A DNA stretch of 64,000 bases from Candidatus Atribacteria bacterium (GTDB taxonomy: Bacteria; Atribacterota; Phoenicimicrobiia; Phoenicimicrobiales; Stramentimicrobiaceae): positions 1 to 64,000 of the forward strand of contig JAGYIZ010000005.1 of NCBI GenBank assembly GCA_018402425.1, read 5' to 3'. This document shows, piece by piece, positions 1,307-54,331 of this stretch. The number at the start of each line of letters is the position of its first letter. Position 1 is the stretch's first letter. The translations under genes were made by a program, and so were the position numbers. The notes beneath the pieces are model-generated. The model was not told where the DNA came from. It saw only the letters and a list, made by a program, of their open reading frames with translations, and did no database searches.

Positions 1307-1545
1307 ATAAATATCGCACCCGCATAGCGGGTGGCTTTAAAAACCCCTAAAAGAGCTTTAACTTTTTAGCTCTTTTTCTTTCGATTTTTTATTTAGCCTT
1401 TAACTATAATATTTCTTAAGTAATCGTACTTCCAACTTTGGACTTCAGGTGAAAAATTGTCATCTAGCTACTCTTAATTTTTTTATAGTAAAACTGTTTA
1501 TCTAACCATTACCACCCTCTTAGAAGGTGGAAATGGTTAGATAAA
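1307..1545 (+). repeat. Intergenic modular repeat, copy A (full length)
   Basis: Fullest copy together with 54084-54331. It starts with TATCGCACCCGCATAGCGGG, containing a 7-bp hairpin at 1317-1333. A second small hairpin around AACCCCTAAAAGAGC follows, then a variable AT-rich middle. The shared box GGACTTCAGGTGAAAAATTG starts at 1440, and the long palindrome at 1497-1545 ends the element (TTTATCTAACCATT arm). It fills the space between the glycosyltransferase stop and ftsZ. Read on the transcribed minus strand, the palindrome comes first, about 50 bases after the stop. Confidence 0.85.
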
Positions 1546-1593
1546 AAATATATAAAATAGATCCTTAAACTAAAGTAAATAAAAGATGCTTAG

Positions 1594-2223
1594 TTAATCA
1601 GATTTTAATTGTTTTACAATGTCAAAATACATTTGTAACCTTTTTTTGGCACCTTCAACAAGACCATATTTTTCTTCTTTTATTCTTTGTGTTAAATTAT
1701 GTAACTTTACCTTGCTGACCCTATAGTCGTACTTTTTTACAATTTTAGTGATAGCTAACTCAAGACCATACTTTAGTAAATCCATATTGGGAATAGTATC
1801 AATAATTTGTCTTTTTATTGCTCTCTGTCCCGAAAGATAGGGCATTAAGAATTGGGGCAAATCCGTTAGTAATCTTCCCTGGGTAAAAATACCAATAGTC
1901 ATATCGGCAATATTTTCTCTAATGGGGTTTATTAAAGCATAAACATGTTCATTCTTTAATCCGATTAAATCAGCATCTAAAAACAACAATATATCTGAGT
2001 CAGTATTTTCAAATCCTCTTTTAATTGCCCCTCCCTTGCCAATATTTTCTTCCATCTGATAAACATCTACATTTAATCCCCGTGCAATAGCTACTGTATC
2101 GTCGGTTGAACCATCACTTACTACAATGACATCATTAATTTCGGGAACATTTTTTACTGTTTTAATTACATCTGCAATAGTAATTTCCTCATTGTAAGCA
2201 GGTATAATAACCGATATTTTCAT
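1594..2223 (-). CDS. Family 2 glycosyltransferase
   Basis: GT-A fold glycosyltransferase of 209 aa. The N-terminus has SVIIPAYNEE, then VVSDGSTDDT and the metal-binding FLDADL at about residue 80, which is the standard GT2 layout. There is no membrane segment, so it is probably a soluble enzyme using a nucleotide sugar. The acceptor cannot be read from the sequence. It is the last gene of the minus-strand run that begins with the translation and isoprenoid genes, 47 bases after ispG. A repeat element follows its stop. Polyprenyl-phosphate glycosylation is possible given the neighbours, but that is inference. Confidence 0.85.
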   Translation of the reverse strand: MKISVIIPAYNEEITIADVIKTVKNVPEINDVIVVSDGSTDDTVAIARGLNVDVYQMEENIGKGGAIKRGFENTDSDILLFLDADLIGLKNEHVYALINPIRENIADMTIGIFTQGRLLTDLPQFLMPYLSGQRAIKRQIIDTIPNMDLLKYGLELAITKIVKKYDYRVSKVKLHNLTQRIKEEKYGLVEGAKKRLQMYFDIVKQLKSD

Positions 2224-2270
2224 CTATCACCTTTTTTGGCAGTATTTTTATTAATATAAATAAATTTAAG

Positions 2271-3365
2271 CTAATCAACATTGAGAGTATTAATATTATT
2301 TTTAGAAATAGACCTAACCTCTTCTATCAACTTAGTAACAGCTTCTTCTTTGCTATACCGGCCAATTAATTGACCCTTTTTATAAAGCATGGCTTCTTGG
2401 TTATTAAAGGCAATTCCAATATCGGCAAATTTCGCCTCACCGGGACCGTTTACAACACAACCCATAATTGCAATAGTAAAAGGTTGATTGATATCCCGTA
2501 AATTACGTTCTATTTTTTTGCCAATATAATGAATATCAACCTTACATCTTCCACAGGTGGGACAGGAAATAATATTAATACCTCTTTTTCTGATTGTTAG
2601 TGAACGTAAAATATCATGTCCTACTAAAACTTCTTGAATAGGATTACCAGATAAAGACACTCTTATTGTATCACCAATCCCTTTATACAATAATATGCCA
2701 ATTCCTATTGCCGATTTTGTAATACCTTTTCTATCAAAACCAGCTTCTGTGATACCAATATGCAAAGGATAATCAGTTTTTTCAGCAATGATTTGATTTG
2801 CTTTGATGGTATCCATAACATCGCTTGATTTAATGGATAGAACAATATTATCATAGCTAATTTTTTCTAAAAAGGAAATCAAACGATCTGTTTCTTCAAC
2901 CATTGCTTTGAAATTTGGCTCACCGTACTTTTTCATAATGCTTTTATCAAGTGAACCAGAATTTACCCCAAAACGAATCATAATATTTTTTTCCCGGGCC
3001 TCTTCAATAATATGAACTATTTGGGATTCTTGCTTTATATTACCCGGATTAATCCTTATACCGTCAACATTATTTTTTATTGCCTCTATGGCTATAGTGG
3101 AGTTAAAATGTATGTCAGCCATAATAGGAATATGAGTTTTTTCTTTGATAGTTGGAATAAAACGACATGAATCAATATCGGGAATAGCAATCCGAATCAA
3201 ATCACATCCAGCTGATTCTAATTGTTTAATTTGTTTAATAGTTGTTTTAGTATCTTTAATATTACAGTTGGTCATGGATTGTACAGAAACAGGATGGTTT
3301 CCACCAATTTTTAAGCTACCAATTTCTACAATTTTACTTTTTCTTCTATTAATATTTTCAGACAT
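2271..3365 (-). CDS. ispG: 4-hydroxy-3-methylbut-2-enyl diphosphate synthase IspG (GcpE)
   Basis: Iron-sulfur enzyme that converts MEcPP to HMBPP in the MEP isoprenoid pathway. It is 364 aa, the compact bacterial form. The N-terminal TIM barrel begins around GGNHPVSVQSMTNC, with DIHFN at about residue 86. The C-terminal 4Fe-4S part carries CPTCGRC and later GCVVNGPGE, supplying the cluster cysteines and glutamate. It lies 16 bases after rseP and in the same run as dxr and uppS; ispH is elsewhere in the window, at 35.2-36.0 kb. The ATG start matches the family N-terminus with its RRKS basic stretch. Confidence 0.97.
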   Translation of the reverse strand: MSENINRRKSKIVEIGSLKIGGNHPVSVQSMTNCNIKDTKTTIKQIKQLESAGCDLIRIAIPDIDSCRFIPTIKEKTHIPIMADIHFNSTIAIEAIKNNVDGIRINPGNIKQESQIVHIIEEAREKNIMIRFGVNSGSLDKSIMKKYGEPNFKAMVEETDRLISFLEKISYDNIVLSIKSSDVMDTIKANQIIAEKTDYPLHIGITEAGFDRKGITKSAIGIGILLYKGIGDTIRVSLSGNPIQEVLVGHDILRSLTIRKRGINIISCPTCGRCKVDIHYIGKKIERNLRDINQPFTIAIMGCVVNGPGEAKFADIGIAFNNQEAMLYKKGQLIGRYSKEEAVTKLIEEVRSISKNNINTLNVD

Positions 3366-3381
3366 TATTTAATCCTAATTA

Positions 3382-10270: not shown

Positions 10271-10390
10271 TAAATATCGCACCCACATAGCGGGTGGCTT
10301 TAAGAACCTCTAAAAGAGGTTTAACTTTTACATTAGCTCTTTTTCTTCCAATTTATTATTTCACCTTTAACTATAATATTAGAATGACTC
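10271..10390 (+). repeat. Intergenic modular repeat, copy B (left half only)
   Basis: It begins with AAATATCGCACCCACATAGC and continues GGGTGGCTTTAAGAACCTCT, then AAAGAGGTTTAAC, matching copy A nearly base for base. The stretch CCTTTAACTATAATATT is also shared with copy A. The GGACTTCAGG box and terminal palindrome are missing. It fills much of the 333-base gap between the hslU stop (10469) and the rpsB start (10135). I see no other gene in that gap. Confidence 0.8.
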
Positions 10391-16191: not shown

Positions 16192-16206
16192 TTCTTAATC
16201 ATCCAA

Positions 16207-17526
16207 TTAATATTTTTTTCTTTTTTGATAATGTAATACAATGGGAATTCCTTTAAGATTAAAATACTGCATAAATTGATTTTCAAGATATCTTTGATAT
16301 GAATTATATAAGAGTTCAGGTTCATTTACAAATACCTTAAATGTTGGTGGATTTACCCCTACCTGGGTAATATAAAAAAAATGAAGCCTTCTTCCATTAA
16401 TAATTTTTGGAGGTTTGTGATTTACAATTTTTATAAAAATTTGTTCAATTCCGAGTATTAATATTTTTATTATATTCATTATAGGTGTTTGTAATTGCTT
16501 TTAAATTTGAGAAACATTTTTTTGCCAACTGCTATAGTTGTTAATATCTGTGTATCTTTTAGAAATCTTAATTCATTATCTACTCATTTTTAGTAATAAA
16601 TCTTTATCAATTTCTTTTTGTTTGACTACTAAATCATATATTTATTTAACAAAACAATACAAGCCTTTTTCTTCCATAATCTTTTCTGCAAGACGTTTAT
16701 GCATACTTATATAATTATTTGCATTTAAAACAAGTAACACTATATCTACTTTTTAATGGATTCCAATGCACAAGAATATTTCCGAAATCATTCAACTTTT
16801 TCTTGTACTTTTTTTTCCTGAAGACCCGAATGTATCTACAAATTTCAATTTATATTCATTAAAATCCATGGAAGCTTCAATGGCATCGCGTGTAGTACCG
16901 GGATGAGTTATCAACAATTATTCTTTCATCATTTAAGTGCATTTAAAATACTGGATTTACCACATTTGGTTTTTCCAATGATGGCAATCTTTATTGTATT
17001 GCTATCTTTTTCTTCGTTATCTTTACCGAACAATCATTATCAATGGCAGTTAATTTGACGAATTTTTCCAATAATTCACCAATATTTTCCCGCTGCTCTG
17101 CTGATACAAAACAGGGTTTCCCATACCCAGTTTGATGTAAATCACCTAAAAAATAGTTTCTATCTTTAATGTCGTTTTTATTAGTACAAAAATTGTCTTT
17201 TATTTTTGCGTATAAATTTGGCAATATCAACATCTTCTTGTTGAATGCCTGTCATAATATCAAGCATTATGAAGACAATATCCAGATTCGATTATTGCTC
17301 TTTTGATTGTTCAATTATTTTCCCTTGTATAAATTCTTTTTCTTTATCATAAATAATTCCGCCTGTATCAATCAGTAAGAAAGTTTACCTTAGGAAAAAT
17401 CAGCATAGTTTCTATCACGGGTAATACCTGTTTCTCTTAAAACTATTTTTCTATATCAACTAGGCGATTAAATAAAGTTGATTTTCCTGTATTTGTCTTT
17501 CCGATAATTGCTATTTTTGTTACCAT
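16207..17526 (-). pseudogene. der: GTPase Der (EngA), frame-disrupted
   Basis: Double-GTPase ribosome assembly factor. The ATG at 17526 opens VTKIAIIGKTNTGKSTLFNR, the first G domain (usual form NVGKST). Further frames give TGITRDR, IDTGGII, NKNDIKDR (second-region NKxD) and KPCFVSAEQRENIGELLEKF. The C-terminal KH-like domain is open at 16207-16479 and contains PPTFKVFVNEP. At least eight shifts or stops separate these pieces. The gene is essential, so sequence error is the likely cause. It lies between rpe and plsY. Confidence 0.85.
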
Positions 17527-17622
17527 AATCCTGCTCTGTTTTTATATTGTTTAAAATATTAATCTCATATTATAATATTGCCTGTTATTTTGTAAGAATG
17601 TTATTGATTAGAAATGATAATT

Positions 17623-18285
17623 TTATTTAGACAACATTTCTTGAATGCTGTTAATTATTTTCAGGATATTGTGATTTAAATATTTCAGAACCAACTACTA
17701 ATATGTTAGCACCAGCTTGGTTTACACCTAAGATATTTTCAAGATTAATTCCTCATCAACCTGAATATCAATATCTTTTTAGCTTTTATAACCATTTCCT
17801 GCTTGCTGTAATCTTTATTAAACATCATTGACGGTATGAATTTTTGACCATTTCAAATCAAGTTTACTGTCATAATAAGTATAGTATTCAATTTATCCGT
17901 AACATATTTTATTAATTCAATGGTGAAGAGAGTTAGCGCTACTCCTGCCTTTAAACCAGAATCCAAAAGAATAATCTGAAGTGTGCTATCTAAATGCTTA
18001 CAAGCCTCTGCATGGACTATAAGACAATCGTTTTATCATAGCATGAGAGAAATCATTGATAAAATTTTCTGGATTTTCTATCATCAGATGTACACTCAAT
18101 GGAATAGAGGTGATTTTACTTATTGTTTCAATATCATGGGCCCAAAAGATATATTTGGAACAAAATTACCATCCATTATATCAAGATGTATCAAATCTAT
18201 TTTACTTTTTCTAACATAAGTAAAACTTCTACTGTAAACAAGAAAAATCAGCATTCAATATCGATGGCAATTTATTTTTAATCAT
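17623..18285 (-). pseudogene. rpe: Ribulose-phosphate 3-epimerase, frame-disrupted
   Basis: Pentose phosphate pathway TIM-barrel enzyme interconverting ribulose 5-phosphate and xylulose 5-phosphate. From the ATG at 18285 it reads [12 protein letters not shown]. It then continues in another frame with [20 protein letters not shown] (metal His and Asp) and PLSVHLMIENPENFI. The distal half shows AGANILVVGSEIF. Multiple single-base shifts interrupt it. It lies between comM and der; in Bacillus rpe is near the rsgA region, so this placement is lineage-specific. Confidence 0.85.
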
Positions 18286-18323
18286 TATCTTACCCTTTCA
18301 AAAGAATTAAAAAACATTATTTA

Positions 18324-19834
18324 TTATATTAAATCTTCTATCAAACTTCGGTATTGAATTGCCTCGGATAGATGAGAAATATTTATTTCTTCCGACAAAC
18401 TAATCTGCAATTGTTCTTGATAGTTTTAATATTTATCATAAGCTCAGGCGCTTAATTTTAATTTATCCATGGCATGATTCAGCAAAGCCCAACCGTCTTT
18501 CGATAATTTGCAATGTTTTCCAACGTATCTTTTGATTCATTTGAGAATTACTAAATATAGATTGATTTTTAAAACGCATCTGCTGAATATTTCTTGATTT
18601 TTCTATTCTGTCCCTGATTGTATTAGAAGTATCTTCATGACTATTTCTGTTTGCTAATTCCTATAATCTAATCTTGGTACTAATTTGTATATCTATTCTA
18701 TCCAACAATGGGCCTGAGATTTTTGATCTATTTTCAGGATTTGATTAGAATACAGGTACACTGTTTTACGGGGTCTAAAATAACCACAAGGACATGGGTT
18801 AAGCGGCAATTAGCATAAAATGAGAAAGATAAGTAACTGATCTTAATGTCACTGGATATTGTGACTTTACCACTTTCTAAGGTTGGCGTAATGACTCCAA
18901 GGCAGAACGATTAAATTCCAGGCAATTCGTCTAAAAATAGTACACCGTTATGTGCCATACTAATTTCTCTTGGTTTTGGTATACGCCCTCTCGTTAATCC
19001 TATATTATAATAGTATGGTGTGGAGAACGAAAAGGTCTCTAGTCATAATTGGGCAATCCCGATTAGATAGATTGGAAACACTATATAACCGTGTTATTTC
19101 TATTGATTCCTCAGGGACAAAGATGGTAAGATTGTTGGTATCCTTTGACTAACATTGTTTTACCAGATCCAGGTGGTCCCTATCATAATTACATTATGAC
19201 CTACTATTTGGCTGACGACCTCTAGAATCTTTTGGCATGGTTTTCTTTACATCAGAAAATCTATTTGATAATCATTACTATGCCTCATTATTTCTTTTTT
19301 ATCAACCTTAATTGGCAAAATATCAATTTCTTTATTTAGAAACCTAACCACTTCTCTCCAAATTAGAAATAGGATAAATATTAATTCCATCTACAATACC
19401 AGCTTCAGGTGCATTTTCTTTGGGTACAATTATATTTTTAAATCCTTTTCTCCTCGCCATTAGTGCTATAGACAATATACCATTCACCGGTCTTATTTGA
19501 CCATTAAGAGAGACCTCTCCGATGATAATAAATTTATTATAGAAAAATTATTTATCTGATTGTTGTGACCAATATTCCAATGGCGATAGGTAAATCCAGG
19601 GCTGGTCCTTCTTTCTTGACGTTGGCCGGGGCTAAATTAACAGTTATTCTTTGCATGGGAAATTGATATTCAGTATTTTTATTGCAGACCTTACTCTCTC
19701 TCTTGATTCCTGTACAGCTGTATCTGGAAGTCCGACAATATTAAAGAAGGGAGTCCATTAAAAACATCTATTTCTACTTCAACGACAAATGCATCTACTC
19801 CAAAAAGGCCAGTACTGCGAAGTTTTGCTATCAA
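18324..19834 (-). pseudogene. comM: YifB/ComM family Mg chelatase-like AAA ATPase, frame-disrupted
   Basis: Hexameric helicase-like protein linked to branch migration in natural transformation. The N-terminal Lon-S5-like part reads IAKLRSTGLFGVDAFVVEVE. Later frames give GQIRPVNGILSIALMARRKG, the zinc/AAA region, GRIPKPREISMAHNGVLFLDE (Walker B region) and LLDRIDIQI. The end reads RTIADL before the stop at 18324. The TTG start at 19834 is a best guess. Many shifts are present. No dprA follows, although dprA is a common neighbour. Confidence 0.8.
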
Positions 19835-19863
19835 CAGAACACCTACAATCCATGTTACATAAT

Positions 19864-20208
19864 TATTGAATAAAAGCATTAGTAATATGCCTTATTTCTC
19901 TTAATAAATATTTATCAAATTTTATGGAAATAACATCAAAACGAAATAATTTATTTTTATTTGTTTCTTTTTATATAAAACTGAGAACTTTAATTATTTT
20001 TCTTTTTTATAGGAGTGATCGCCTCTTCCGGAAAGACCATACTTTTGACTTTCTTGATTTTACTTCTATAAAGCAAATACAATTTTTGTTTTTCAGCAAT
20101 AATATCAATTTCACCAAAAGGGGCTTTAGATTCTGTTCCAAATAGTATAACCGTTTCTGAGCAAGTACTGTCCTGCTAAATCTTTATAATTTGTCCAATG
20201 TTATTCAT
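19864..20208 (-). pseudogene. yraN: YraN family (UPF0102) nuclease-fold protein, frame-disrupted
   Basis: Small restriction-endonuclease-fold protein of unclear role found next to rnhB in many bacteria. Recognisable pieces are LLRNGYTIWN, then APFGEIDIIAEKQK with the conserved Glu-Ile-Asp, followed by FIEVKSR and EEAITPIKK in other frames. The ATG at 20208 abuts the rnhB stop. About four single-base shifts break the frame. Confidence 0.75.
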
Positions 20209-20841
20209 TTATAATTCAATATGCATATAACCTTTCTTGTTGATATTTTGTTCATATCCACATCCTTTAATACACTTTTGAATGTTTTTCGATGCAAAGG
20301 ACAAATACCATATTTTTAATTGCCATTATATGGTTTCTTGTACCATATCCAACATTTTTATCAAATTGATAAAAGGATACTTTGTGAAATCGTACATAAT
20401 TTATCACGGTATACCTTGGCAATAATGGATCTTTGCGGCAATAGAAATGCTTTATCTACCCTTGATAAGATTATCTTGAGGTATTCGGTTATAAGGAATT
20501 TTGTCATCAACTAAAATATAATCAGGAAATCTCTTCAAATTCATAAGGGCTCTTTTCATTGCCAGAAAAGTTGCTTGTGCAATGTGATTTTATCTATTAT
20601 GTCAGGTTCAACAATTCCAATACCTATATCTTTTGATTTGTTTTGATAAGCTCAAAAGATTCTCTCTTTTTATTCTATTTAATTTTTGAATCCTTAAGGT
20701 AAAGTAAGATAAAAATAATCCAATATCCTTAATAACCACTGCGAGTTTGCAACAACAGGTCCTGCCAAAGCTCCCCCGTCCAACCTCATCTATTCCAGCA
20801 ATATAATAAAAGCCATTAGAAATATGTCTTTTTCGAAACAT
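20209..20841 (-). pseudogene. rnhB: Ribonuclease HII, frame-disrupted
   Basis: Removes RNA from RNA-DNA hybrids and misincorporated ribonucleotides. The N-terminal 77 codons (20608-20841) are open with IAGIDEVGRGSF, the DEVGRG catalytic motif. Downstream frames give DIGIGIVEPD, FPDYILVDDKIP (catalytic Asp) and ISIAAKDP, then GYGTRNHIMAI. The C-terminal CPLHRKTFKSV-type segment follows. Several indels are present. It lies between rplS and yraN as in many genomes. Confidence 0.85.
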
Positions 20842-20931
20842 TTAAGTCTTTCCACTCTTTCTCTTTCTCGGTAAAAAAACTTAATATTTTTTTAAGCTAG
20901 TATCTTTCCTATATAATATCTTTTATTCAAT

Positions 20932-21282
20932 TTACTCCACAGGATATATGTTTAGGTCATCAAACCTTTTTTGGCCAACTCTGTTCCTTAAATAATATAA
21001 TTTTGCTTTTCTGGGTGGATCCTTTTGATAAGTTTAAATTTTTCAATATTTGGGGAATTTAGCGGGAATATTTTTCAACCCCAATACCTTTAGTTACTTT
21101 CTAACAGTAATTGTTTCTCTGCTTCTCATGTTTTTGGGCAATTAATATACCCACAAATACTTGTATTCTTTTTCTTTCTCCTTCAACAATTTTCTGATAT
21201 ACTTCTATTAAATCACACTGGATTTGCCTCAAAGTTTTCTTTTTTTAACTGTACATCTTCAATATCTTTTTATATAATCCAT
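20932..21282 (-). pseudogene. rplS: 50S ribosomal protein L19, frame-disrupted
   Basis: Large-subunit protein at the 30S-50S interface. From the ATG at 21282 (AGGAAAAT upstream) one base too many separates MDYIK from DIEDVQLKKENFEANP. Later frames give KIVEGERKRIQVFVG, then VTKGIGVEK, then LNSPNIEKFKLIKRIHP. It ends AKLYYLRNRVGQ with stop 20932. Its 5' end overlaps the trmD 3' end by 38 bases. The trmD-rplS pair is conserved. Confidence 0.85.
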
Positions 21283-22032: not shown

Positions 22033-22076
22033 TATTATACCTTGCTTCTCACTTATTATTAAAAAATAATTTTTTG

Positions 22077-22301
22077 TTATTCAGAAATTTTAATTATTGT
22101 TTTTATCATCTTTAATTGTAAATTTGCTTTTACTATTGTCGAATTGCCTTAATTACCCTGCCCTGTTTACCAATGATTTTACCAACATCAGTTGGATCAA
22201 CGCTTATTTCAAAACATTTAATTTTCTCCATTATTCATTGATTTGAACTGATCAGGAAAATTTACTATTTCTTTCAATAAAAATTCAATAATATCTTTCA
22301 A
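22077..22301 (-). pseudogene. khpA: KH-domain RNA-binding protein KhpA (YlqC), frame-disrupted
   Basis: Small KH-domain protein, about 75 codons. It begins LKDIIEFLLKEIVNFPDQF after a TTG with GGAG upstream. It continues with ISVDPTDVGKIIGKQGRVIK, whose GKQG is the RNA-binding loop, and ends KTIIKIS. There are two apparent shifts. It sits between rpsP and trmD as in Bacillota. Confidence 0.85.
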
Positions 22302-22340
22302 GCTTTTTCTCCAAAATATTATTTAGGAATTAATTTTTTA

Positions 22341-22579: not shown

Positions 22580-22664
22580 ATTATTCCTCCATCTATATTG
22601 TCAAATAATTAATATTCAAATATTTTTACTTTATAAAGATAATCCTATTTAATAAACAGAAGCT

Positions 22665-28620: not shown

Positions 28621-28649
28621 TTTAAAATGCCTTTTTCTTAAATAACCTT

Positions 28650-33308: not shown

Positions 33309-33431
33309 TTTATTTAACCATTACCCCAGCTATTAGAAGGAAGTAATGGTTAAATAAGTGGGTTTTCATGAAAAGTTAAACCTCTTTTAGGGGTTCTTAG
33401 AGCCATCCCGCTTTGCGGGTGCGATATTTAC
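33309..33431 (-). repeat. Intergenic modular repeat, copy C (reversed, short middle)
   Basis: In reverse order: the palindrome TTTATTTAACCATTAC... at 33309-33357, a shortened middle, then the AAACCTCTTTTAGG hairpin and the CCCGCTTTGCGGG hairpin with GCGATATTTACT at the end. It lies between the convergent tmcAL side and coaD. The coaD reading frame runs into it, and the stop codon (33397-33399) lies inside the repeat. Confidence 0.85.
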
Positions 33432-34527: not shown

Positions 34528-34764
34528 CAAATATCGCACCCGCATAGCAGGTGGCTTTAAGAACCCCGCAAGAGGTTTAACCTTTTCTTGGTTACTTCTT
34601 GTTCTACTTTTCTTGTATTTGAACTGAATATCTCTAAGCAATACAACTGCCTGCTTTGGACTTCAGGTAAAATTGTCAGATAGCTTCTCTTGATCTTTTT
34701 CATGATAAACCAATTTATTTAACCATGACCATTTTCTTCTTAAAAGTTTTTCAGGTTAAATAAA
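34528..34764 (+). repeat. Intergenic modular repeat, copy D (full length, degenerate palindrome)
   Basis: It starts CAAATATCGCACCCGCATAG, with the second hairpin at AACCCCGCAAGAGG and the box TTTGGACTTCAGGTAAAATT at 34656. The terminal palindrome TTTATTTAACCATG...GGTTAAATAAA is decayed in the middle. It lies between the divergent rsmD and rpmB genes, so it must contain or flank their promoters. Confidence 0.85.
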
Positions 34765-35062: not shown

Positions 35063-35110
35063 TTTATTTAACCATAAAACACCTTCTTTGGTGATAAATA
35101 GTTAAATAAA
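35063..35110. repeat. Lone palindromic module after rpmB (copy E)
   Basis: TTTATTTAACCATAAAACACC, then TTCTTTGGTG and ATAGTTAAATAAA: outer arms TTTATTTAAC/GTTAAATAAA with an imperfect centre. It is directly after the rpmB coding end and lacks the rest of the repeat, like the copy at 71-121. Confidence 0.75.
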
Positions 35111-40487: not shown

Positions 40488-43092
40488 TCCTTTTTTCTTT
40501 TAACATTTTTACAAATGATAGTTCATCATCTCTATTTCTTAAAATACCGTTTAATTGAAGATATAACACTAATTTTAATATTTTAGCATAAATCGGATTG
40601 GGCTTCATGCCTATTTGCGTTAAATCATGTCCTGAAATATAAGTAGATGTTTTTATAAATATTTAAATATTTTTCTATTCGATTGACTATGAGCTTATTT
40701 TCTTTTCTTCCAATAAAATAATAAAGAGTAACTCATTGTCTATATTCTTTAAATGATAATATATATGACTTGGCATAATTTCCTCTTTATTTAAAATGTG
40801 AATTATCTCGTGTTTTTCTCCTCAAGCACTTTTTCTAGTTTTAATATTTCTTTCACTTAATCCGATTCGTTTTTTTTAATATGTTTAATCTCTAGTTTTG
40901 ATAACACAATAGATAGTATAAATACAAAACACCTTTATTGATATTCTCTTCAGGAATTTAATATTCCAGAATTCATCATTTCTTCATTGCTTAAATCGTT
41001 CAACGAGAGATTGATTTAGCCTTAGATTGAAATTATTCCGGAAGAATACCTAACTCATCCATTCTTTTGAGTACTTTAATTGGTTTTTGCTCACCAAAAG
41101 AGATCAAGAATTCTTCCTTAAGTCTTTTTTTTTTTCGAATAAGTATTACTAACCCTTCTCTGACTGCTTTCCTAAGAAATTTTTCTGTTGACTGTTCCAA
41201 GCGTAAAATCATATCTTTGCTCAAATCGAACAGCTCTTATGATTCTAGCAGGATCTTCTGTAAAACTCAGGCTATATAGAATTCTTATTTTTTTTAGCTC
41301 TAAATCTCTCTTGCCTCCAAAAAAATCAAGTAACCTTGCAAATTTATCCTTATTTAGCTGTACCGTATAGTGATAGTAAAATCTCTCAGTACAAATCCTT
41401 TTTTATAGAAGCAAATTCAACTTTCGGTAATGCGACAGGAAATTCCGTAAAATTCTCTTCTTGCAGAAGCAAAATCCACCCCAATCCGTTTGGCAATATC
41501 ACAACTGCTGTTTAAATTTTTGATGACATCTCATCTTTCCATTTGTCTTTCTGCAAAATATTTAGCAAATTTAATAAGCGTCTTCTTCAATAACAATGTC
41601 GAATCCAGGCTTGAGTATTCCTAGAAACAAATCTTTCTTACAATGCCTCCAACCATAAAGATAGAATAGCCTAAATCGTCATGACCTTTTGGCCTATTTG
41701 ATATAAAATATCCAGAATATCTCTTGGGAAATACTGTTGAATTAAAGTTTCTATTTTTCTTTACCGGAATTATATTGCGGTTCTATTTTCATATAGAATA
41801 TGATTCTCTATTAATATCTTTTTCACCATATAGGCTTCTGATTAGATCTGTCCTTGTGATTATTCCTTCTAATTTCCCCTTTTCATTTAAAACTAATACT
41901 CTAAACATCATATTTAATCATTAATTCTTGAATTTCTAACATCGGTGTATTCAAATTAACACTAATAATATTCTCAGTATATAAATATCAACTGTTTCAT
42001 TTTCGTAACGATGGTGTTTAGCCTTATAAAAATTTCTTGACGGGTTATAATTCCTACTAATTTTTCTTTATCCATTACTGGAAAACCATTATGTCCATAG
42101 CGCAACATTATTTTAGATGCTTTAATTGTTGTGTGAACATCTAAGGTTTTAACCGGACTGGTCATAATATGTTTTGCTAATGTTTCTGTTTCTATATGAT
42201 TATTTAAAATTTCTTTAATTCTATTTTCTAATTCTATTAAGGGGAGATTTTCTTCTCGCGATCTTTGCTTACCCGAATGACCCCCCACCTATGCTTTTCA
42301 TTATTTTACCAACATTTACTGAATTTCGATTGCTTCTTCCAACTACATAAACTCTATTTTTCATTTTGCACTAAAACAAGAATTATATCACTATTAACTA
42401 TTTCAATCAATTTATGGGTAACGAGGGCTAAACCTTCAATGTATTCTGCAACCTTTGCTTTTTGCAGAAAACAACACTTATTCCTTAAAGTACTTTTCTT
42501 TAGAAGTTGAAATTAAACGATTCAATAGTTTTTCTGTTCTGAATTTAGACAATATTAGTAAACTTATTAACGGTTCTTAAATTTACACCAACAGAAAAAG
42601 GTAACTTAATACATCTATATCTTCTTTAGTTGTAGAGGAAAAAGTAAAGAGAGAGCCAGTATCTTCGTATATACCTAGTGCAAATAAGGTCGATTCTAAA
42701 GAGGTGATGAAATATTTTGCAATTATATGCTTTAATAGTATTGTGGTAGTTGCGCCTACTTGTTTTATGGTAATATTCTTCGCCTTAATATCGTTTTCTG
42801 TTGTCAATTTGATGATCATAAATGTTAATTTTTAATTTTTATTATCTAACAGTGATTCAGAGGACCAATTCTATCTTTATGGTATCGACAATAATTAATT
42901 CTGAAATATTTGTCATATCAATTTGTTTTTAGTGTGTATATATTTAAAGTATTACCATACAAAGAAAAACTTGCGAACATTTTCTTCAACAGCACCAGGA
43001 AAACAATAAACGCATCAGGATATATTTTTTGCGGCAATCATGGAGGCAAGACAATCAAAATCTGCGCTAGTATGACCAATGATTACTTTCAT
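40480..43092 (-). pseudogene. DHH-CBS-tRNA nucleotidyltransferase (CCA/A-adding) fusion, frame-disrupted
   Basis: About 2.6 kb. From the ATG at 43092: VIIGHTSADFDCLASMIAAK, a DHH-type phosphoesterase start. FALGIYEDTGSLFTFSSTT (open 42583-42819) is the second DHH part. CBS-domain stretches follow (HIMTSPVKTLDVHTTIKASK, YGHNGFPVMD). The poly(A) polymerase/CCA head with VGGFVRD-like sequence is in broken frames, then RILYSLSF and the open RLEQSTEKFLRKAVREGL (41033-41224). It ends LISGHDLTQIGMKPNP. This DHH-CBS-PcnB order is known from Aquificota and some anaerobes. Many indels are present. Confidence 0.8.
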
Positions 43093-43157
43093 AATATCTC
43101 ATCCATTATCGAAAAATTTTTAATATATATAATTTTAAAAGAAAGGATTAAAACTAC

Positions 43158-43325
43158 ATAAATACCGCACCCGCACTTAGAGTGCTTTAAGACCCCTAAA
43201 AAGAGGCTTAACTATTTATTAGCCATTTTTTCTCTGCTCTTTCTCTTCAAATCTCTTTAGGACTTCAGGTAAAAATATTTCAGTTAGCGAAAATTATATT
43301 TTTATGGTAAAGTAATTTTATTTAA
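43158..43325 (+). repeat. Intergenic modular repeat, copy F (degenerate right end)
   Basis: ATAAATACCGCACCCGCACT, a second hairpin AGACCCCTAAAAAGAGGC, and the box TTTAGGACTTCAGGTAAAAA. The terminal palindrome is reduced to TTTTATTTAAG, which overlaps the deoA stop codon (43318-43320). Confidence 0.75.
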
Positions 43326-44639
43326 GTTTCTTTAATCCATATTTATCAATAACAGCTAATAGCAAGGGTTCTTCTTTCGGTTTTTATCAATAATATGAAA
43401 AGCATTTTTACTATATTCTTTTGCATTAAAATATTTTTTCATCATTAAAATATAATGTTGCTAAAACCTCTTTTGAATCTGCAGCCATTACCTTTTTCTT
43501 TTTAATATTATTCCGACAGATAAATCTATTTTTGCATCTTTCACTTCTCTGCCTGCTCCTAGAACCATAGAAGCTTCACAATCATGTTGTCCTCAATGAT
43601 ATCCAACAAATCCATTTCTTTCAGAATATATATTTCTTTCATACTTTGCTTTTGGTAATAAATCAGTGTTGTCTATTTGACTTATATCACCATTTTGGCT
43701 TTTTACCATTTGCCTAAATTTCTCTAATGCCCTTACCATTGTGAAGACACTCTTCTAGTATATTAACTCCGTCTTTTTGATTTACTAATAACTTCATTAT
43801 AATTAACATATATGAACCTATACAAAGACAAAGATTTTAAGTCATCAGAACCTTGATTATTTAATAGTGCAATTGCTTCTTCTACTTCAAGAGAATTTCA
43901 ATTGCATATCACAGAAGGAGTTGATCATTGAGAAATAATCATAAGTATCTTTATGATTATTTTCCCCAATGTTAACCATTGTTTTGCCCTAATAAAACAG
44001 CATCTTCAATATTTTATAAAAGCTCCTCTGCCAACTGTTATATTTAAAACAAATCATCTGCTCCACTCAGCAATCTTTTTACTCATAATACTACTGGCAA
44101 TCAGAGGAATGCTGTCAATGGTACCTGTAACATCTCTTAAGGAATATATTTTTTATCTGCTGGTGCAAGATTAATATTAGCACTGATAATCGAGGCATTT
44201 ACATCTTTAACAATTTCAATAAATCTTCTAATAGAAAGATTGGTTTAAAGCCATTTATTGATTCTAATTTATCCAATAGTTTTCCAATTATGTCTAATCC
44301 ACGACCAGAAATTTTAGGAATCAGACACCTTACCAGCGGCAACCATTGGTAATAATACCAGAGAAGTTTTATCTCCAACACCTCCTGTGCTAGCCAACAT
44401 CGCCTTTTTCCCAGATATTGAGCTTAGATCTAATGTTTCACCTGATTTAGCCATGATTATGAGTCAAATCATTTATTTCTCGTTTAGTCATTCCATTAAA
44501 CCAAATAGCCATAAGAATTGAGGACATTTGATAATCTTGTATTTTCCATTTAAATAATTATCAATAATAAAAAAAAATTGTATTTCTTCTGTAGATAGCG
44601 CTTTTTGTTCTTTTTCTCAATAATTCCGATAATATTCAC
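43318..44639 (-). pseudogene. deoA: Pyrimidine-nucleoside (thymidine) phosphorylase, frame-disrupted
   Basis: Phosphorolysis of thymidine or uridine in pyrimidine salvage. A GTG at 44639 opens NIIGIIEKK. The signature [16 protein letters not shown], then [15 protein letters not shown] in an adjacent frame, and KISGRGLD follow. [25 protein letters not shown] and a VGRGAFIK-type glycine motif come next. The end reads AVIDKYGLKKLK. Many indels are present. cdd, another pyrimidine salvage gene, is at 54.4 kb. Confidence 0.85.
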
Positions 44640-44701
44640 AACAGAAATAATCAGAGACTAGATGTCCCTGAAATCCTTTCAAAATATTTTTATGTTTTTA
44701 C

Positions 44702-44870
44702 AATAAATATCGCACCCACATAGCGGGTGTCTTTAGAACCTCTAAAAAGAGGTTTAACTTTTTATTAGATAGTTTTTGCTCTGCTCTTTTCTCTTGATCT
44801 CTTGGCTATCTTTTAAAGGAAGCTCTTTCATGCTATTTTTCGTGTATTTAAGTTTAAGGTAAAAATAAGA
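44702..44870 (+). repeat. Intergenic modular repeat, copy G (right end degenerate)
   Basis: AATAAATATCGCACCCACAT, AGCGGGTGTCTTTAGAACCT and CTAAAAAGAGGTTTAAC match copies A and B closely. The right part decays to TTTAAGTTTAAGGTAAAAAT, within which the hppA stop codon lies (44854-44856). Confidence 0.75.
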
Positions 44871-46819
44871 TTATAAAAACCAGCGATACAATGGACATAA
44901 CTTTAATTAAAAAATATTCATAGATGGCCCTGCTGTATCTTTGAAAGGATCACCGACTGTATACCGATAACGCATACTTGATGTGCTGGTGAATTTTTTA
45001 CCACTCATAGTTTCCTTTCTCGATATATTTTTGCATTATCCAGAGCACCTCCGGAATTGGCCATCATAATCGCCAGAAATACTCCTACAACAACTGAACC
45101 CAAAGTAAAGACCCCTAGAGCTTCTGGACCAAGAAATACGCCAACAAAATAGGAGCAATAATAGCAAGTAATCATAGTCATAATCATTTCTTTCAATGCA
45201 CCTTTTGTGCTAATATCTACATTTTTCTGGCTCTGGTTTAGCAGTGCCATCTTTTAAATAGGTATTTCTTTAAATTGCCTTCTTACTTCAGCAATCATTA
45301 ATCTTTGCGGTTTTCCGACAGCCTCTATTGTCATAGAAGCAAAAAGGAAGATTAATATACCTCCAATAAAAATACCAATCATTACCATGGGATTAGTAAT
45401 GCTAATAATACTCAATCCTACAGATTTACTATATGCAGTAAATAATGCCAATGATGTTAAATTTGCTGAGCCAATGGCAAATCCTTTTCCAATAATTTTG
45501 CGGTAGTATTTTCCCTACAGCATCAATGAATCAGTAATCTTTCTACTTCAGGTTTCAATCCTGCCATTTCTGCTATTCCTCCTGCATTATCTGCTATAGG
45601 TCCATAGAGATCAACCGATACTGTCATACCTACAATAGATAGCATTCCCACTGCGGCAACTTAATTATGCCATACAGTCCCTGCAAAATAATGAGAAACA
45701 TAAATTGCTATACAAATGACAATAATAGGCAATGCTGTGCTTTTAAGTCCCACAGCAAATCCTTCCAGAATTGTAGTCATGACTCCTGTCAACAGAAGCC
45801 TCCGCTATTCTTTTTACTGGAGAATAATCATAGGAAGTATAATACTCTGTAATCAAACCAATTGCTACACCGGCAATTAAACCTGAAATCGTAGCAAAGA
45901 ATATTGCCAGTTTAAACAATATATAAGACAAAGCGAAGACGCTATTGTACCAGGCACCACTTATATATGTACCTGAATTTAATGCCTTATGAATACTTTG
46001 GTCATCATAGGGGGATATGAAAAAGTTGCAATAATTACAGAAATAATCCACAAGAAGCAGAATCAATGGATAGATGATGTAGTTTATCGGAATCATTGCA
46101 ATATGCTTCACCAATATCATGCATGACAAAATAGAACACTACAAAAGATTCAAACAAATCAGCTCCCATTCCTGCGACATCTCCAACATTGTCTCCAACA
46201 TTATCGGCTATTACTGCAGGGTTTCTTGGATCGTCTTCAGGTATCCAGCTTCAACTTTTCCAACTAAATCAGCTCCAACATGCTTTGCTTTTGTATAGAT
46301 ACCACTTTTCTCCAACTCTGGCAAATAGAGCTATTGAACTAGCACCTAAAGCAAAAGCCATTGATTAAGTTAGGGTCTTCATATAAATAATATAAAATAC
46401 CTAAACCAACTAAACCAAAACCGGCTACTGACATTCCCATTACTGCGCCTCCGGAAAAGGCAGCCTTTAGTGCTTTGCTAATCCGGATTCCTGGTAGCAA
46501 ATGTTGTTCTTGCATTAGTCTTCGTAGCAATTTTCATACCTAAATCCTGCTAATGCCGAACATGATGCTCCAAATACAAATGAAATACCAGTTGTATGCT
46601 TCCCATAACCAATACAATGATTAATGCAATGATAATAACAAAAAATATCAAAATCGAATATTCTCTTTTTAAAAATGTCATTGCACCTTTTTTCAATCGA
46701 AGCTGAGAGTTGTTACAAATCGCTCCCTGCTTTTTCAGACATAACACGTTTTGCCAGGTATCATTGCATATAACAATGATATTAAACCACTAATAATTAT
46801 CATCAGCAATTACCAACAT
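44854..46819 (-). pseudogene. hppA: Membrane-bound ion-translocating pyrophosphatase, frame-disrupted
   Basis: Pumps H+ or Na+ using pyrophosphate. Open stretches include [47 protein letters not shown] (pyrophosphate-binding acidic loops) and [10 protein letters not shown]. An NTTA-KGFAIGSA-like segment follows, then LFASMTIEAVGKPQRLMI and FTLGSVVVGVFLAIMMAN. It ends VGDPFKDTAGPSMNI. The alanine after NTT and GSA rather than GTA point to the K+-dependent class, though the frame shifts there. The ATG at 46819 is the likely start. Confidence 0.87.
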
Positions 46820-46860
46820 TTTTGACTCCTTTTATATTTTAATAAAATCCATATATCCAT

Positions 46861-47152
46861 TAAATACCGTATCCGCAAGACGAGTGGCTTTAAGAGGCCT
46901 TTAAAAAGAGGCTTAATTTTTTTTTTAGCCATTTCCCTCTGCTCTTTTCTCTTGTCTCTTATCCATCTTCCTAAACGATTCTTTCAGGATATTCAAGGGG
47001 GAATACTTCCTTGAGAACCCCTGAAATGCTATACTTGATTTTAAAATCTAGCTTCGTATATATTTGGGTCTTATGTGATATTGCCTCTTTTTAGGACCTT
47101 GGGTAAAATATTTCAGGCAACCATACTCTATTGTCTTTCTGGTTAAATAAAC
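46861..47152 (+). repeat. Intergenic modular repeat, copy H (longest, divergent)
   Basis: TAAATACCGTATCCGCAAGA start, second hairpin GGCCTTTAAAAAGAGGC, a long variable middle, TTTAGGACCTTGGGTAAAAT (matching the GGACTTCAGG box) and the end GGTTAAATAAAC. About 290 bases. It fills the gap between ppdK and hppA. The remaining stretch 47153-47337 is AT-rich and shows no gene. Confidence 0.65.
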
Positions 47153-47337
47153 ATAATTAAAATTATAATTATTTACTATATAAATTATAAATCAATATTA
47201 CTAATAATCTAATATTATTTTATCACATTTAAAAATTACAAAGGTGGTTCCCCCATATTTTTAAAAAACAAAAACCACTGCTTATTTTTATTACAAATAT
47301 ATGAAAATGTAAATATTTGTAATTATTGATTTTTTGT

Positions 47338-49947
47338 TTATTCCTTTAAAACTGCATGTCTTTGCGACTAATCTGGCAATCGGTACCTGAAAGGAGAACA
47401 GCTTACATAATTCAATCCAGTTCTGTGACAAAATTCAACGGAATTTGGTTCTCCCCATGTTCTCCGCATATTCCAATCTCTAAATCTGGATTTGTTTTCC
47501 TCTATAATTCTACACCGGTTTGAACTAGTTTTCCAACTCCTTCTGTGTCTAAAACTTCAAAAGGATTTTCTTTTAATATTCCTTCATCAACATATTTTAG
47601 TAAAAACTTTCCTTCTGCATCATCTCGGCTTATACCGAATGTTGTCTGGAGTCAAGTCATTGGTTCCAAAGGAAAAATTCTGCATATTGTAATTTCATCA
47701 GCAGTGTATCGCCCTTAGCAATATCATAGTTCCTACTTTATATTCTAAATCCAGATTTTCTTTGAAATGTTCCTCGGCTAATTTTTAGTTTTATTGTAAA
47801 TCGGTTTTTAATTCATTGACATGTCCAACCAGAGGAATCATAATTTCAGGTTTTTACGTCCACTCCTTGTTTTTAATTCTACGCTTGCTTCAATAATAGC
47901 CTTGCATCTCATAAATCTCAGGATACAATAATCCTAAACGCAGCATCCTCTTAAACCAAGCATGATTCATTTCCTGTAACATTCTTATTCTCTAATATTT
48001 TTCTTGCTTTTCTAATTCATCCTTATTTTGTGGTTTTCTCTAATTTTAGTGTTGTGCAGCTACTAATGTTTCTTCGAAATTAGGTAAAAATTCATGCAAA
48101 GATTAGGTCCAACAAACGAATGATTACAGGAAAACCGTGCATTGCCTTTAATATTCCTACAAAGTCACTTTTTTGCAGGCAATAACTTATCCAATTCTTT
48201 TTGCCGTGATTCCTTGGTATCAGAAGTGATCACTTAGCTTGAACAATAGGTAATCGCTCAGGTGCCATAAACATATGTTCGGTTCTGCATAAACCTATTC
48301 CTTCTGCTCCTAAATCTCTTGCTTTTGAGCGTCTTCAGAATCAGCATTTGCATACACACCCAATTTTCCTAATATCATCAGCCCAGGAAAGTAGTAGAGT
48401 AAATTCCTCACTCATCTTTGGCTCAATCATAGGAACTTTTCCTTCAAATACCTTGCCGTTACCCCCATCAATCGTGAATCTGGTCACCTTTTTTGATTGT
48501 TTTTCCCTTCGACAGTAAAAGTCTCTTTTTTGAATTTAATCCTAATATCACTACAACCGGCAACACAGGGCATGCCCATTCCTCTTGCCTACCACAGCGG
48601 CATGACTTGTCCTTACCACCCACTGCTGGTTAAAGTGCCTTTTTCTTTTCAACCATCCCATGTATATCATCCGGCGTTGTTTCTGTTCTTACCAATATGA
48701 CATCTTCTCCATTTTTACCCATTTCTTCAGCTTCATCAGCAGTAGAACCTTTACCTGAGGTACCTGGGTGAAACTGGTAATCCTTTAGCAATAGATTCAA
48801 TATTGGCTTCAGGATCAATCCTACGATGGAGCAATTGATTTAATTGCATTGGTTCAATTCTGCTAACAGCAGTTCTCTTATCAATAACACCCTCATTAAA
48901 CATATCAGCAGCAATTTTTAATGCTTTGCCTGTGCCAGTTCGTTTGCCTGTCCTTGTCTGAAGAAGGTAAAGCTTCCTTGCTCAATGGTAAATTCAAAAT
49001 CTGAACATCTTTGTAATTTATTTCCAATGTTCTCACGATACGTATTAATTCTTCATATGCCTTTGGTAAATCCTTCTTAAGGTCATCAAGGCTTTGGTGT
49101 TCTGATTCAGCTACCACGTCTTCGCCCATGGGCATTTAAAAGATATTCACCATAATTCTCTTTTGCACCAGTAGAAGGATTTCGAGTGAAACCAACACCT
49201 GTTCGGAATCATCTCCCATATTTCCGAAAGGTCATTTCCTGAACATTAACAGCAGTTCCCAAATCATCAGGAATCTTATGTATTCGTCGATAGGTAATGG
49301 CACGTTTATTGTCCCAGGAGCTAAAAACAGCCTCTATAGCCATATTCAGTTGCTGTTGAGGGTCATCCAGGAAACTTTTTCTCCTTTTTCTTGTAAAACC
49401 AGGCTCTTATACTGTTTAACAAGTTCTTTCAGTCCTTCTACATTTATTTCAGCATCAATTTCACCTTTTGTTTTCTTTGATTTTTTTTCAAGTTTCTTCA
49501 AAAAGCTCGCCCTTAATACCCATTACTACATTACCAAACATTTGAATAAATCTGCGATAGCTGTCATAGACAAATCTTTCGTCATTTGTTTTTATGTATC
49601 CTTTAATGGTATCTTCATTTAATCCCTAAATTAAGAACAGTATCCATCATTCCTGGCATAGAAATAGCGGCACCTGAACGTACAGATACCAGCAACGGAT
49701 TTTCTAAATCCTAAAATCTTATTGGCTTTTTCCTCTAATTTTTTTCAAGTTTTTATTAACCTGTTCCGGTAAGCCTTCAAGGAATTTTTCGATTTTGTAT
49801 ATTCAATGCATGCTTCTGAGGTTATAGTAAACCCACGAGGTACTGGTATTCCCCATTTTAGTCATCTCGGCTAAATTGGCTCCCTTACCTCCCAACAATC
49901 TTTTCATATCCTTATTTCCTTCATCAAAAAATACACATATTTTTCAT
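47338..49947 (-). pseudogene. ppdK: Pyruvate, phosphate dikinase, frame-disrupted
   Basis: Interconverts pyruvate, ATP and Pi with PEP, AMP and PPi. From the ATG at 49947: KRLLGGKGANLAEMTKMG and IPVPRGFTITSEACIEY. An open stretch has MGEDVVAESEHQSLDDLKKD, and ALVEKGIADPKDAI-like sequence follows. GTSGKGSTADEAEEMGKNGE and TETTPDDIHGM are open at 48630-48818. TSHAAVV, the catalytic histidine motif, is in a shifted frame. The C-terminal PEP site reads [10 protein letters not shown]. About 870 codons, as expected for PPDK. Many indels. hppA next door shares pyrophosphate. Confidence 0.9.
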
Positions 49948-49999
49948 TGATATTAATTCTCCTCTCTTTTATTGTATCAAATAAATGAAAATGTTTTTA

Positions 50000-52110
50000 A
50001 TAAGATAATCTAAAAAATATTTTTCAAATAATTCAGTTCGATTCTCCTTGGCAAGAGAAATCTTGGATAAATCTCTGCCACAATATAATACATATCTGTA
50101 ATATTTTTAATAGGGCTAATCGATTATTCCTGATTATTCATCTTTATCCATTACCAGTACTCTATCAAAAAATGAGTTAATCGGTTCAGTCATCAATTCT
50201 AAATCAAAAATTTTATCATATTTTTGTTTTGAAACCGCTTTTCTATTTTGTCACTTATTTTAGGTAATTTTCATAAAGAATATTTTTCTTCTTTTTCTTG
50301 AAATATTGTACGGTTTATCTCATTTGTTCGTGCATTTTGGACAAGTTAACTGTTCTTGTCATTTTTGGTAATGATTTTATTGAATTTCGAAAAGTTATAT
50401 ATGTTTTGAATAACTTTTATTACCAACAAATCATCGATAGAGTTGGGGGATATTTTACTAAAACAGCATCAATCACATCATAATTATATCCTCTTTCAAT
50501 AAGCAAATATCGAAATCTTTGAAAAATAAAATCTTTAATTTTATAAGTTAATTCATGATTGTTTATATTATTTTTAATATGTGTTGTTTTCTTTCAATAA
50601 TAATTCAATGTCTAAATTTATAATTTCATCCAAAGAAAAATCCATATTGTTAAAGATGGGAATATTTATAATGCCCAAAGCTTGTCTCCTCAGGCATAAG
50701 GATCCTGAGAACCATCAGGAATATTATTGACAAAACATGCTGTAATATTGTATCAATCTTGTCGGCAATACTAAAATTTTACCACTAATTGTTCTAGGTA
50801 AATCATCATCTGAAAATCTTGGTAGATAATGCTCAGAAAATATCGGCAACTTGTATCTTCTCCCTGCAATATTGCATATTCTTTACCCATAATACCTTGT
50901 AATTCAGAAATTCCTTAACCATATCAGTAACCAAATCTGATTTGCATAATTGAGCTGATCTTTTATTACTTCTGATAGATCATTACTTAATTGAATTTTA
51001 TCTCCTATTGTTTCTACTAAAGCAATCAATCTTCTACTTTATTAAACATGGAACCTAATTTTCTTGATAGACATTTTTAGCTTTTCAGATTATTATCAAG
51101 TGGTTTTGTATTCGTATCGGTAACTTTTGGTCTTCTGATAGAAAAAATTTGGCATCTTCAATCTAGCTTTAAAACTTTTTCATTACCATGAACAATAATA
51201 TTTTTATATTTATCTTCATTTCCATTAATTACAACGAAAAATATGGTATATATCCTTCTTTCGAGAAAGTAGGAAAATATTTTGATGTTTTATCATCACT
51301 GATTTTAATACTTCAGAAGGTAATTTTAAGTAACTTTTATCGAATTGACCCAAAAAAACTCGTGGATATTCAACTAAATTCTTTACTTCATCAAGCAATG
51401 TTTGGTCTATATAATCTCTTCCGGATATACTTTTGGTCATTTCAGTAATTTGATTAGTAATTATTTTCTTTCTTTCATCAGGGTCAATAATTACAAAGCA
51501 ATTGTTCATTATATTAAAATATTCATCTACTGTATTACTGTTTCCAGATTTTGGAGAAAGACGGTTACCAAAAGTATTACAATCGGAATTTAATGTTTCT
51601 AAATTAAAGGGAATGATTTTATCATTATATAAAGCTAATAACCATCTTATTGGTCTTATAAAACGGAAAATGGCATCCCCCATCGCATGGACTTAGGAAA
51701 GTTTAAACTAAAAATTAACTTAGAAGTATTTCTGGAAGCAGGGTTTCGGTTTTTACCTTTTACAATTTTTGGGCAAATAAATATTCACCTTTGTCTGTTT
51801 TTTCTATTATAAGTTTTCCACTTTTATATTATTAGCTTGAGCAAATTTTATTGCAGGTTTTTGGGGATTGTCATCTTTGTCAAAAGAAATATTTTTAGAG
51901 GGCCTTTAACTTTTTAAAAATATCTTTTTGCTGAAATTTATATCTTCTATATAAACGATAAGTCTTCTGGGTGTACCATAGGTCTTTATGTGACTATATT
52001 CAATATTCGCTTTTTAACTTATTTCTGGCGATATTTCTTAAATCAATTAATTATCTATATATATAGAAAGGTATTTCTTCTGTACCTATTTCCAAAATAA
52101 CTTTATTCAT
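50000..52110 (-). pseudogene. glyS: Glycyl-tRNA synthetase beta subunit, frame-disrupted
   Basis: Partner of GlyQ in the bacterial alpha2-beta2 enzyme. From the ATG at 52110: NKVILEIGTEEIPF. A 152-codon clean stretch (51225-51683) has FRFIRPIRWLLALYNDKIIP and LLDEVKNLVEYPRVFLGQFD. Later pieces are ADKIDTILQ-like, RRQALGIIN-like and EPINSFFDRVLVMDKDE. The exact stop is uncertain, near 50000. It directly follows glyQ (TAGATG). Confidence 0.88.
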
Positions 52111-52987: not shown

Positions 52988-53027
52988 ATAGATAGTCCTT
53001 TCTAGCTATAAATCTTCTAATATAAAC

Positions 53028-53090: not shown

Positions 53091-53188
53091 TAATCTTTAT
53101 AAATATAACAAAATCATTTATGATGTCAAAAAAAGATTAAGAAAATTAAAATATTAATACATTTATTTTTCTATTTATTATAACATTA

Positions 53189-53250
53189 TTTATTTACCCA
53201 TTACTGCTTCTTTGAAGAAGGTCGCCCGCTTTGCGGGTGCGGTATTTACT
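53189..53250 (-). repeat. Intergenic modular repeat, copy I (reversed, minimal form)
   Basis: TTTATTTACCCATTACTGCT, then TCTTTGAAGAAGG, followed at once by CGCCCGCTTTGCGGGTGCGG and TATTTACTG. The two end hairpins are joined directly with no middle. It lies between the glyQ leader and the recO stop and is the shortest two-ended copy. Confidence 0.75.
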
Positions 53251-53274
53251 GTTAATTAATTGTTTTTATTCTAT

Positions 53275-54012
53275 CTATAAACTGTTTAGTTTATTTTCAA
53301 TTTCAAATTGATAAAACATATATCGATCTGTAATTTTTACTAATTCGCATAATTCGGATTGCAAGACTTTTTTTTATTATGAATCATGGGCAAATCAGCG
53401 ACTAATATCCTTTTTAATAATCTCAGGCAATAACCAGTTATTTTTATCTGATAGTAATTGTTTCCATTTGACAGGAATTACAGATTAAACCTCCTTTTTT
53501 GAATATCAAAAACATAAAATTTATTTTCTTTAATATGGCTATTACAATGAACGCATTTATTTAGCTCCGGTTGATATCTAAAAAGAAAATAATTTCCATT
53601 GAAAAGGAAACCAATAAAAGAGCAGGGTTTTTCTCGTGTCTTTTAACAACATCAATACATTTTAAATAAGATATAAATATATTCATTAGGGTCTTCATCT
53701 TCTGTTATTTTATCAATAATTTCCGCGCATTGAATAGCTATTCCATAACTTATTAAATCTTTGGATTGAGGGAAAAAGAGTTAATAATTTCGGTTTGACT
53801 TACAATTTAAATTTTTACCCTTGGCTTAATTATTTTTACCAGTGTTAAGTTTTCTAGGCTACCTATTCCAAATTGGCTTTTTGTTTTTCTAATACCTTTC
53901 ATAATTGCTCTTATTTTCCATAATCACGACTGAATATAGTTACGATTTTATCAGATTCATTAAGCTTTATACTTTTAAGTACTATTCCGTCAGTTTGAAA
54001 TAAACAATTCAT
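53275..54012 (-). pseudogene. recO: DNA repair protein RecO, frame-disrupted
   Basis: Loads RecA with RecF/RecR at gaps. From the ATG at 54012: CLFQTDGIVLKSIKLNESDK and IVTIFSRDYGKI are clean, the OB-fold start. KGIRKTKSQFGIGSLENLTL follows. The zinc region shows YQPELNKCVHCNSHI and GGLICNSC with four cysteines. The end reads ITDRYMFYQFEIENKL. Several indels. It lies between cdd and glyQ, as in the recO-glyQS cluster; era is absent. Confidence 0.88.
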
Positions 54013-54083
54013 TGATTTAATCAAAAGCTCCTATTGTTATAACATTAAAATATGGTATTATATTTCTTTTATGCTCTAGTTAT

Positions 54084-54331
54084 TAAATATATACCCGCAT
54101 GGCAGGTGGCTAAGTTTCTAAAGAGGTTTAGGTTTTCTTAGACAATTTTTGTCACACTCTTTTCTTCTTTCGATGTTTATTTATGTTACAACAATATTTC
54201 TAAGCAAAACAAATATCTATTTTGAGCTTCAGGTGAAAAATTGTCATCTAGCTTATCTTAATATTTTTATGGAAAAACCAGTTTATTTAACCATTTACCA
54301 CCTTCTTAGAAGGTGGTAATGAATTAAATAA
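54084..54331 (+). repeat. Intergenic modular repeat, copy J (full length)
   Basis: Starts AAATATATACCCGCATGGCA. The second hairpin region is TTTCTAAAGAGGTTTAGG. The box TTGAGCTTCAGGTGAAAAAT is at 54220, with TTGTCATCTAGCTTATCTTA as in copy A. The palindrome at 54283-54331 has the centre CCACCTTCTTAGAAGGTGG. It lies between recO and cdd, the palindrome about 30 bases after the cdd stop. Confidence 0.85.

Follow-up and report, generated by a model that had tools for sequence, protein, structure and literature searches.

A non-autonomous, probably IS200/IS605-derived family of palindrome-associated elements in an Atribacterota genome

Palindrome-associated transposable elements (PATEs) of Haloquadratum walsbyi carry no transposase, no terminal inverted repeats and no target duplication, but occur in many copies, and their near-terminal palindromes are related to IS605-type ends (PMC3119063). 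Terminal-only PATEs of about 52 bp arise in the same organism by core deletion (PMC3119063). Further, a PATE-like sequence of about 271 nt, present as a single copy and retaining part of tnpB, was reported from Halanaerobium hydrogeniformans (PMC7290912), and the REP/REPIN elements with their RAYT enzymes are likewise intergenic hairpins tied to Y1 HUH enzymes (PMC6006769, PMC3116915).

In this study, a dispersed repeat family was analyzed in a 64,000-nucleotide stretch of a Candidatus Atribacteria contig (hereafter the window) and in further segments of the same draft genome. Judged from its sequence, the family is very probably a non-autonomous IS200/IS605-derived element of the PATE type. 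Similar to the Haloquadratum PATEs, it is short and non-coding, with palindromic ends and no duplication, and its 62-bp copy at 53189-53250 resembles the 52-bp terminal-only PATEs. However, the sequence is different, the host belongs to Atribacterota and not to the archaea, the ends lead back to an element of IS200 type alone, with tnpA and no TnpB found, and the left-end palindrome is far longer. The Halanaerobium sequence is also an ends-only derivative of the IS200/IS605 family, but in contrast to that single copy with its tnpB part, the Atribacterota element has many copies and no recognisable transposase remnant. Compared with REP units, it has two distinct ends, and the RAYTs tested were not flanked by it.

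The copies listed by an earlier sequence-only reading of the window were all found, with ends within a few bases, and both lone palindromes lay where it had placed them (Table 1). The modules it described were present as well, but their natural direction is the reverse of the one it gave, its "palindrome" being the left end (LE) and its "TATCGC hairpin" the right end (RE). In detail, the element starts with the LE palindrome TTTATTTAACC...GGTTAAATAAA, continues with an anonymous middle, and closes with an RE of two hairpins ending in GCGATATTTAYT; in an aligned full-length copy, the LE TTTATTTAACCATTACCACCTTCTNAGAAGGTGGTAATGGTTAAATAAATGGTTTTACCATAAAAAG and the RE AACCTCTTTTAGAGGTTCTTAAAGCCACCCGCNNNGCGGGTGCGATATTTAYT enclose a middle of about 120 nt. 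Conservation ended at the element edges, left of TTTATTTAACC and right beyond TTTAYT. When both ends were compared, no terminal inverted repeat was seen, and written inwards the termini differ in sequence (TTTATTTAACC... vs. AGTAAATATCGC...). Hairpins at each end are the expected substrates of IS200/IS605 transposases. Folded as single-stranded DNA, the LE consensus reached -24.2 kcal/mol (z -10.3) and the RE -13.3 kcal/mol (z -5.3), so that palindromes lie near both termini as in PATEs. Pairing of the RE-hairpin stem was kept in four of five double changes, these being the compensatory changes on which the earlier reading had made its proposal partly depend.

Table 1. Copies and parts of the repeat element in the window. 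G003 is a genome of the same family.
Feature	Position	Strand	Remark
Full-length element, flanked by ftsZ and a glycosyltransferase gene	1307..1545	-	LE 1497-1545, RE 1307-1366
LE palindrome TTTATCTAACC...GGTTAGATAAA	1497..1545	-	consensus ssDNA fold z -10.3
RE hairpin CACCCGC TAT GCGGGTG, then CGATATTTA	1317..1333	-	
Copy without left end, between hslU and rpsB	10271..10390	-	orthologous gap empty in G003, G001, G004, G005
Core-deleted copy, both ends kept, middle mostly lost	33309..33431	+	empty in G003
Full-length subfamily-B copy	34528..34764	-	gap 249 bp here vs 3 bp in G003
Shortened copy	43158..43325	-	gap 207 bp here vs 57 bp in G003
Shortened copy	44702..44870	-	gap 306 bp here vs 158 bp in G003
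Long copy, 292 bp	46861..47152	-	gap 385 bp here vs 80 bp in G003
Terminal-only copy of 62 bp, RE hairpin joined to LE arm	53189..53250	+	G003 aligns across without element, TTTACT at junction
Full-length copy, RE side diverged	54084..54331	-	
Lone LE palindrome	71..121	.	directly after TTCAGAGGAG arm of presumed ftsZ terminator
Lone degenerate palindrome	35063..35110	.	G003 gap nearly equal in length; insertion not evident at 35063

At least 87 copies were found in the examined part of the 2.13 Mb draft genome, which comprised about 0.75 Mb of own-genome segments, picked for holding matches, plus the window. They measured 35-393 bp, most full-length ones being about 240 bp and thus too short to encode a transposase, and no TnpA match was found in the own-genome copies. 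A blastn search with one copy gave 54 genome-wide matches, with E values as low as 1e-89 against other copies, while a short-copy query gave 68 matches in the host genome. None of the 87 copies lay by more than half within a predicted gene or ORF, though ORFs cover 73% of the sequence, which agrees with the claim of the earlier reading that all copies are intergenic.

The family had a narrow distribution. A pattern scan of 84,980 species retrieved the right-end motif from only four contigs, all titled Candidatus Atribacteria, and two of these were from UBA4082, which carries full-length copies at about 72% identity. Among the 148 genomes compared, convincing matches were confined to the same family and order, and the plasmid and viral collections contained no match to the element. 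In the window, no Rfam family scored above its gathering threshold; microRNA hairpin matches that appeared at a permissive threshold were rejected, as they were at chance level only. Consistent with the earlier statement that no named family was known, none was found in Rfam, and the literature searched, which was of partial coverage with ISfinder outside it, described no such family in Atribacterota; because of this coverage, a missing name is no proof of novelty. The kind of element is already known from the Haloquadratum PATEs, and to the extent of the searches, this family and Atribacterota as a host are new.

When 23 relatives were searched for Y1 transposases, G023 and G021 had such genes beside element-like matches. 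The search further pointed to L217 (G015:C36), a complete IS200 element from a different genome of this order, in which a left-end core, tnpA and a right end follow each other. This closest complete parent belongs to a different family of the same order. Its TnpA has 147 aa without internal stop and a visible HUH motif (DHIH), scored 149.8 bits against the NCBIfam IS200/IS605 transposase (cut-off 55), and has the TnpA structures 2xm3 and ISHp608 2a6m as its nearest solved relatives. The LE (66 nt) aligned to that of L217 with a local score of 74, while 500 dinucleotide shuffles reached 34 at most, and the RE with a score of 61, compared with a shuffle maximum of 29. Both elements have the LE core hairpin with TGGTTTTACCATAAAAA, the RE double hairpin CCTCTTTTAGAGG..CTTAAA..CCACC-GC, and TTTA at both borders, while L217 differs in carrying tnpA, in an unrelated middle, and in an RE tail of GGGTTGTTTAGT vs. 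GCGATATTTAYT in the host elements. No match beyond chance was found between the element middle and tnpA. The GGACTTCAGG box and an A-rich stretch, considered as leftovers of the tnpA start and end, were rejected as such since their alignment scores equalled those of shuffles. The same ends were found in G023, a decaying version whose tnpA has an in-frame stop, and at the G021 locus, where this insertion sequence has suffered an internal deletion. Separately, G006 has two near-identical IS200-type tnpA loci (L219 and L238), and L219 is bordered by CCCTGTGGCTTGCCACAGGG-like palindromes and represents an unrelated IS200 element of the same family.

The search for an IS200-type TnpA in the host draft (78.6% complete) was negative, and the parent-type gene occurred only in relatives; the current mover is thus missing from the draft or lost. 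An autonomous copy with GCGATATTTAYT ends may lie in the 21% of the genome that the draft lacks. A transposase with matching ends, which the earlier reading had proposed to look for in the genome, was found in a relative (L217), and the Y1 genes of the host draft are RAYTs. A TnpB-type protein (PF07282) was represented among the 23 relatives by one match above and one below the cut-off. An RNA-guided TnpB partner was rejected, as PF07282 had no match in the own genome.

Orthologous gaps were compared mainly with G003, over about 1.3 Mb, in which only two weak partial element matches were found. Flanks collinear with G003 were present at 24 own copies, and at 23 of these G003 lacks the element, so that the comparison proposed by the sequence-only reading yielded empty sites without a sizeable target duplication. 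The own gap surplus minus the element length had a median of -9 bp, at a resolution of about 10 bp as the flanks are diverged; for example, the gap at C35:23474 is 258 bp here vs. 17 bp in G003. The flanks shared no variable bases, and no sizeable duplication was seen at this resolution. When the flanks were joined with each of the 256 tetramers, TTTT and TTTA came out on top, with TTTA second, a ranking that is suggestive of insertion at TTT(A/T), weakly so in these AT-rich flanks. The ftsZ locus was left out of the full empty-site comparison because its upstream neighbour is not conserved; in relatives, the presumed ftsZ terminator reads TCAGGGGAG-TTTT-CTCCCCTGA, a terminator-like hairpin behind ftsZ.

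The comparison with G003 also revealed other differences in the window. Gene runs at 16200-29300 and 40500-52100 are decayed here and intact ORFs in G003, and 14 decayed genes that were checked had 10-73 in-frame stops each, at mostly 30-50% protein identity. These blocks are collinear with G003, their DNA being about 73% identical across 16 kb, as if pseudogenes had decayed block by block while hardly any sequence was deleted. The genes of the ORF-poor stretch are decayed pseudogenes, which led to the rejection of an alternative genetic code there. The interval 54019-55867 measures about 1.85 kb here vs. 291 bp in G003; as the 248-bp element covers only part of this surplus, another insert or rearrangement is present there.

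In 72 of the 87 copies, the LE-to-RE strand followed the sign of the local GC skew, lying along the G-rich, presumed leading strand. Where the neighbouring genes are in tandem, it also followed the genes in 31 of 34 pairs. Convergent and divergent neighbours give no such information on direction, and of the 15 copies in these contexts (hand-counted split), 11 agreed with the GC skew. IS200/IS605 elements use the lagging-strand template (PMC6006769), and since the 5'-3' direction of this template is the gene direction of the leading strand, the observed bias is expected. The strand bias is as single-strand transposition on the lagging template predicts, while being not fully separable from selection on transcripts.

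With both ends matching an IS200 element, we propose that an IS200-family element lost its transposase gene, or had it replaced, and kept its cis-acting ends. A TnpA provided in trans, a Y1 HUH enzyme, would recognise the two end hairpins on only one of the strands and would cut at TTTA at the left end and after GCGATATTTA(YT) at the right end. The excised single-stranded circle would then insert at TTT(A/T) where DNA is exposed as a single strand, mostly on the lagging-strand template.

An extension of this proposal is that the element has outlived its own transposase and is moved or maintained otherwise, for example by a domesticated RAYT, while the lengthened LE palindrome has taken on a new role, for instance in insulating or terminating transcription from the preceding gene. 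The L217 parent lacks the long outer stem of this palindrome, which encloses the predicted TTTA cut site in duplex; nevertheless, we regard this extension as unlikely.

Very unlikely is a non-mobile structured RNA or terminator/insulator module kept 3' of genes by selection. Such a module would be strictly intergenic and point in the same direction as the upstream gene, as the copies do, and read on the LE-to-RE strand, the RE hairpin and the T-rich stretch behind it resemble a terminator, with compensatory changes in the stem. However, intergenic placement, direction and hairpins equally follow from IS200 ends with a lagging-strand bias, and the convergent and divergent copies still follow the GC skew. 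Further, the orthologous gaps are empty in relatives, the neighbour genes are unrelated, and both ends match IS200, with no Rfam match. On the IS200-derived reading, the end hairpins may have a secondary effect on transcripts.

A REP/REPIN-type element, moved by one of the five host RAYT Y1 transposases, is very improbable. The host Y1 proteins are indeed of the REP type (RAYT), with five intact loci plus two fragments and lengths of 253-330 aa, and two tested ones scored 72.9-76.6 bits on the REP-associated tyrosine transposase model (cut-off 80) vs. 22-23 bits on the IS200 model; the elements, moreover, are intergenic and rich in hairpins. But a search of the five intact RAYT loci and two fragments for the element ends gave only chance-level matches of 12-23 nt, and the element has two different ends that match IS200, not REP. 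One RAYT gene (L063, G000:C72, 973-1990) has its own inverted GGGGTCAGGCTTCA motif at its borders, which marks a separate REP-like system. An ordinary DDE-transposase MITE with terminal inverted repeats and target duplications would also be small, gene-less and of high copy number, but is practically dismissed by the unlike ends that match IS200 and by the lack of both a terminal inverted repeat and a variable flanking duplication. Among the origins offered by the sequence-only reading, the IS200/IS605 derivation therefore stands, on the match of the ends to L217 and the empty sites, the inverted-repeat MITE and the REP/RAYT origin do not, and a structured RNA is not needed.

Several copies deviate from the IS200-derived full-length form. 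The copies at 53189-53250 and 33309-33431 were correctly recognised earlier as shortening or losing the middle and keeping the ends, and they are the result of later decay by core deletion, while the lone palindromes appear to be what is left of left ends. In about four copies (L018, L024, L030 and L058), the palindrome was lost, apparently between short ACCAT/ATGGT repeats, and TTTATTTAACCAT was kept. In a tandem pair (L003, G000:C105), TTTA forms the junction between one element and the right end of a second one (GCGATATTTATTTAACC). The element at L044 (G000:C93, 1333-1563) has a second RE hairpin inside its middle, which is from nesting or inter-copy recombination.

By this analysis, an uncultured phylum gains a defined family of mobile elements and a candidate for their parent transposase. 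A class known mainly from haloarchaea is extended, at high copy number, to bacteria. Much of the intergenic repeat content of this genome, which might have been taken for regulatory RNAs, is accounted for by the family, and the family lends itself to tests of strand-biased single-strand transposition and of the decay of IS200 ends.
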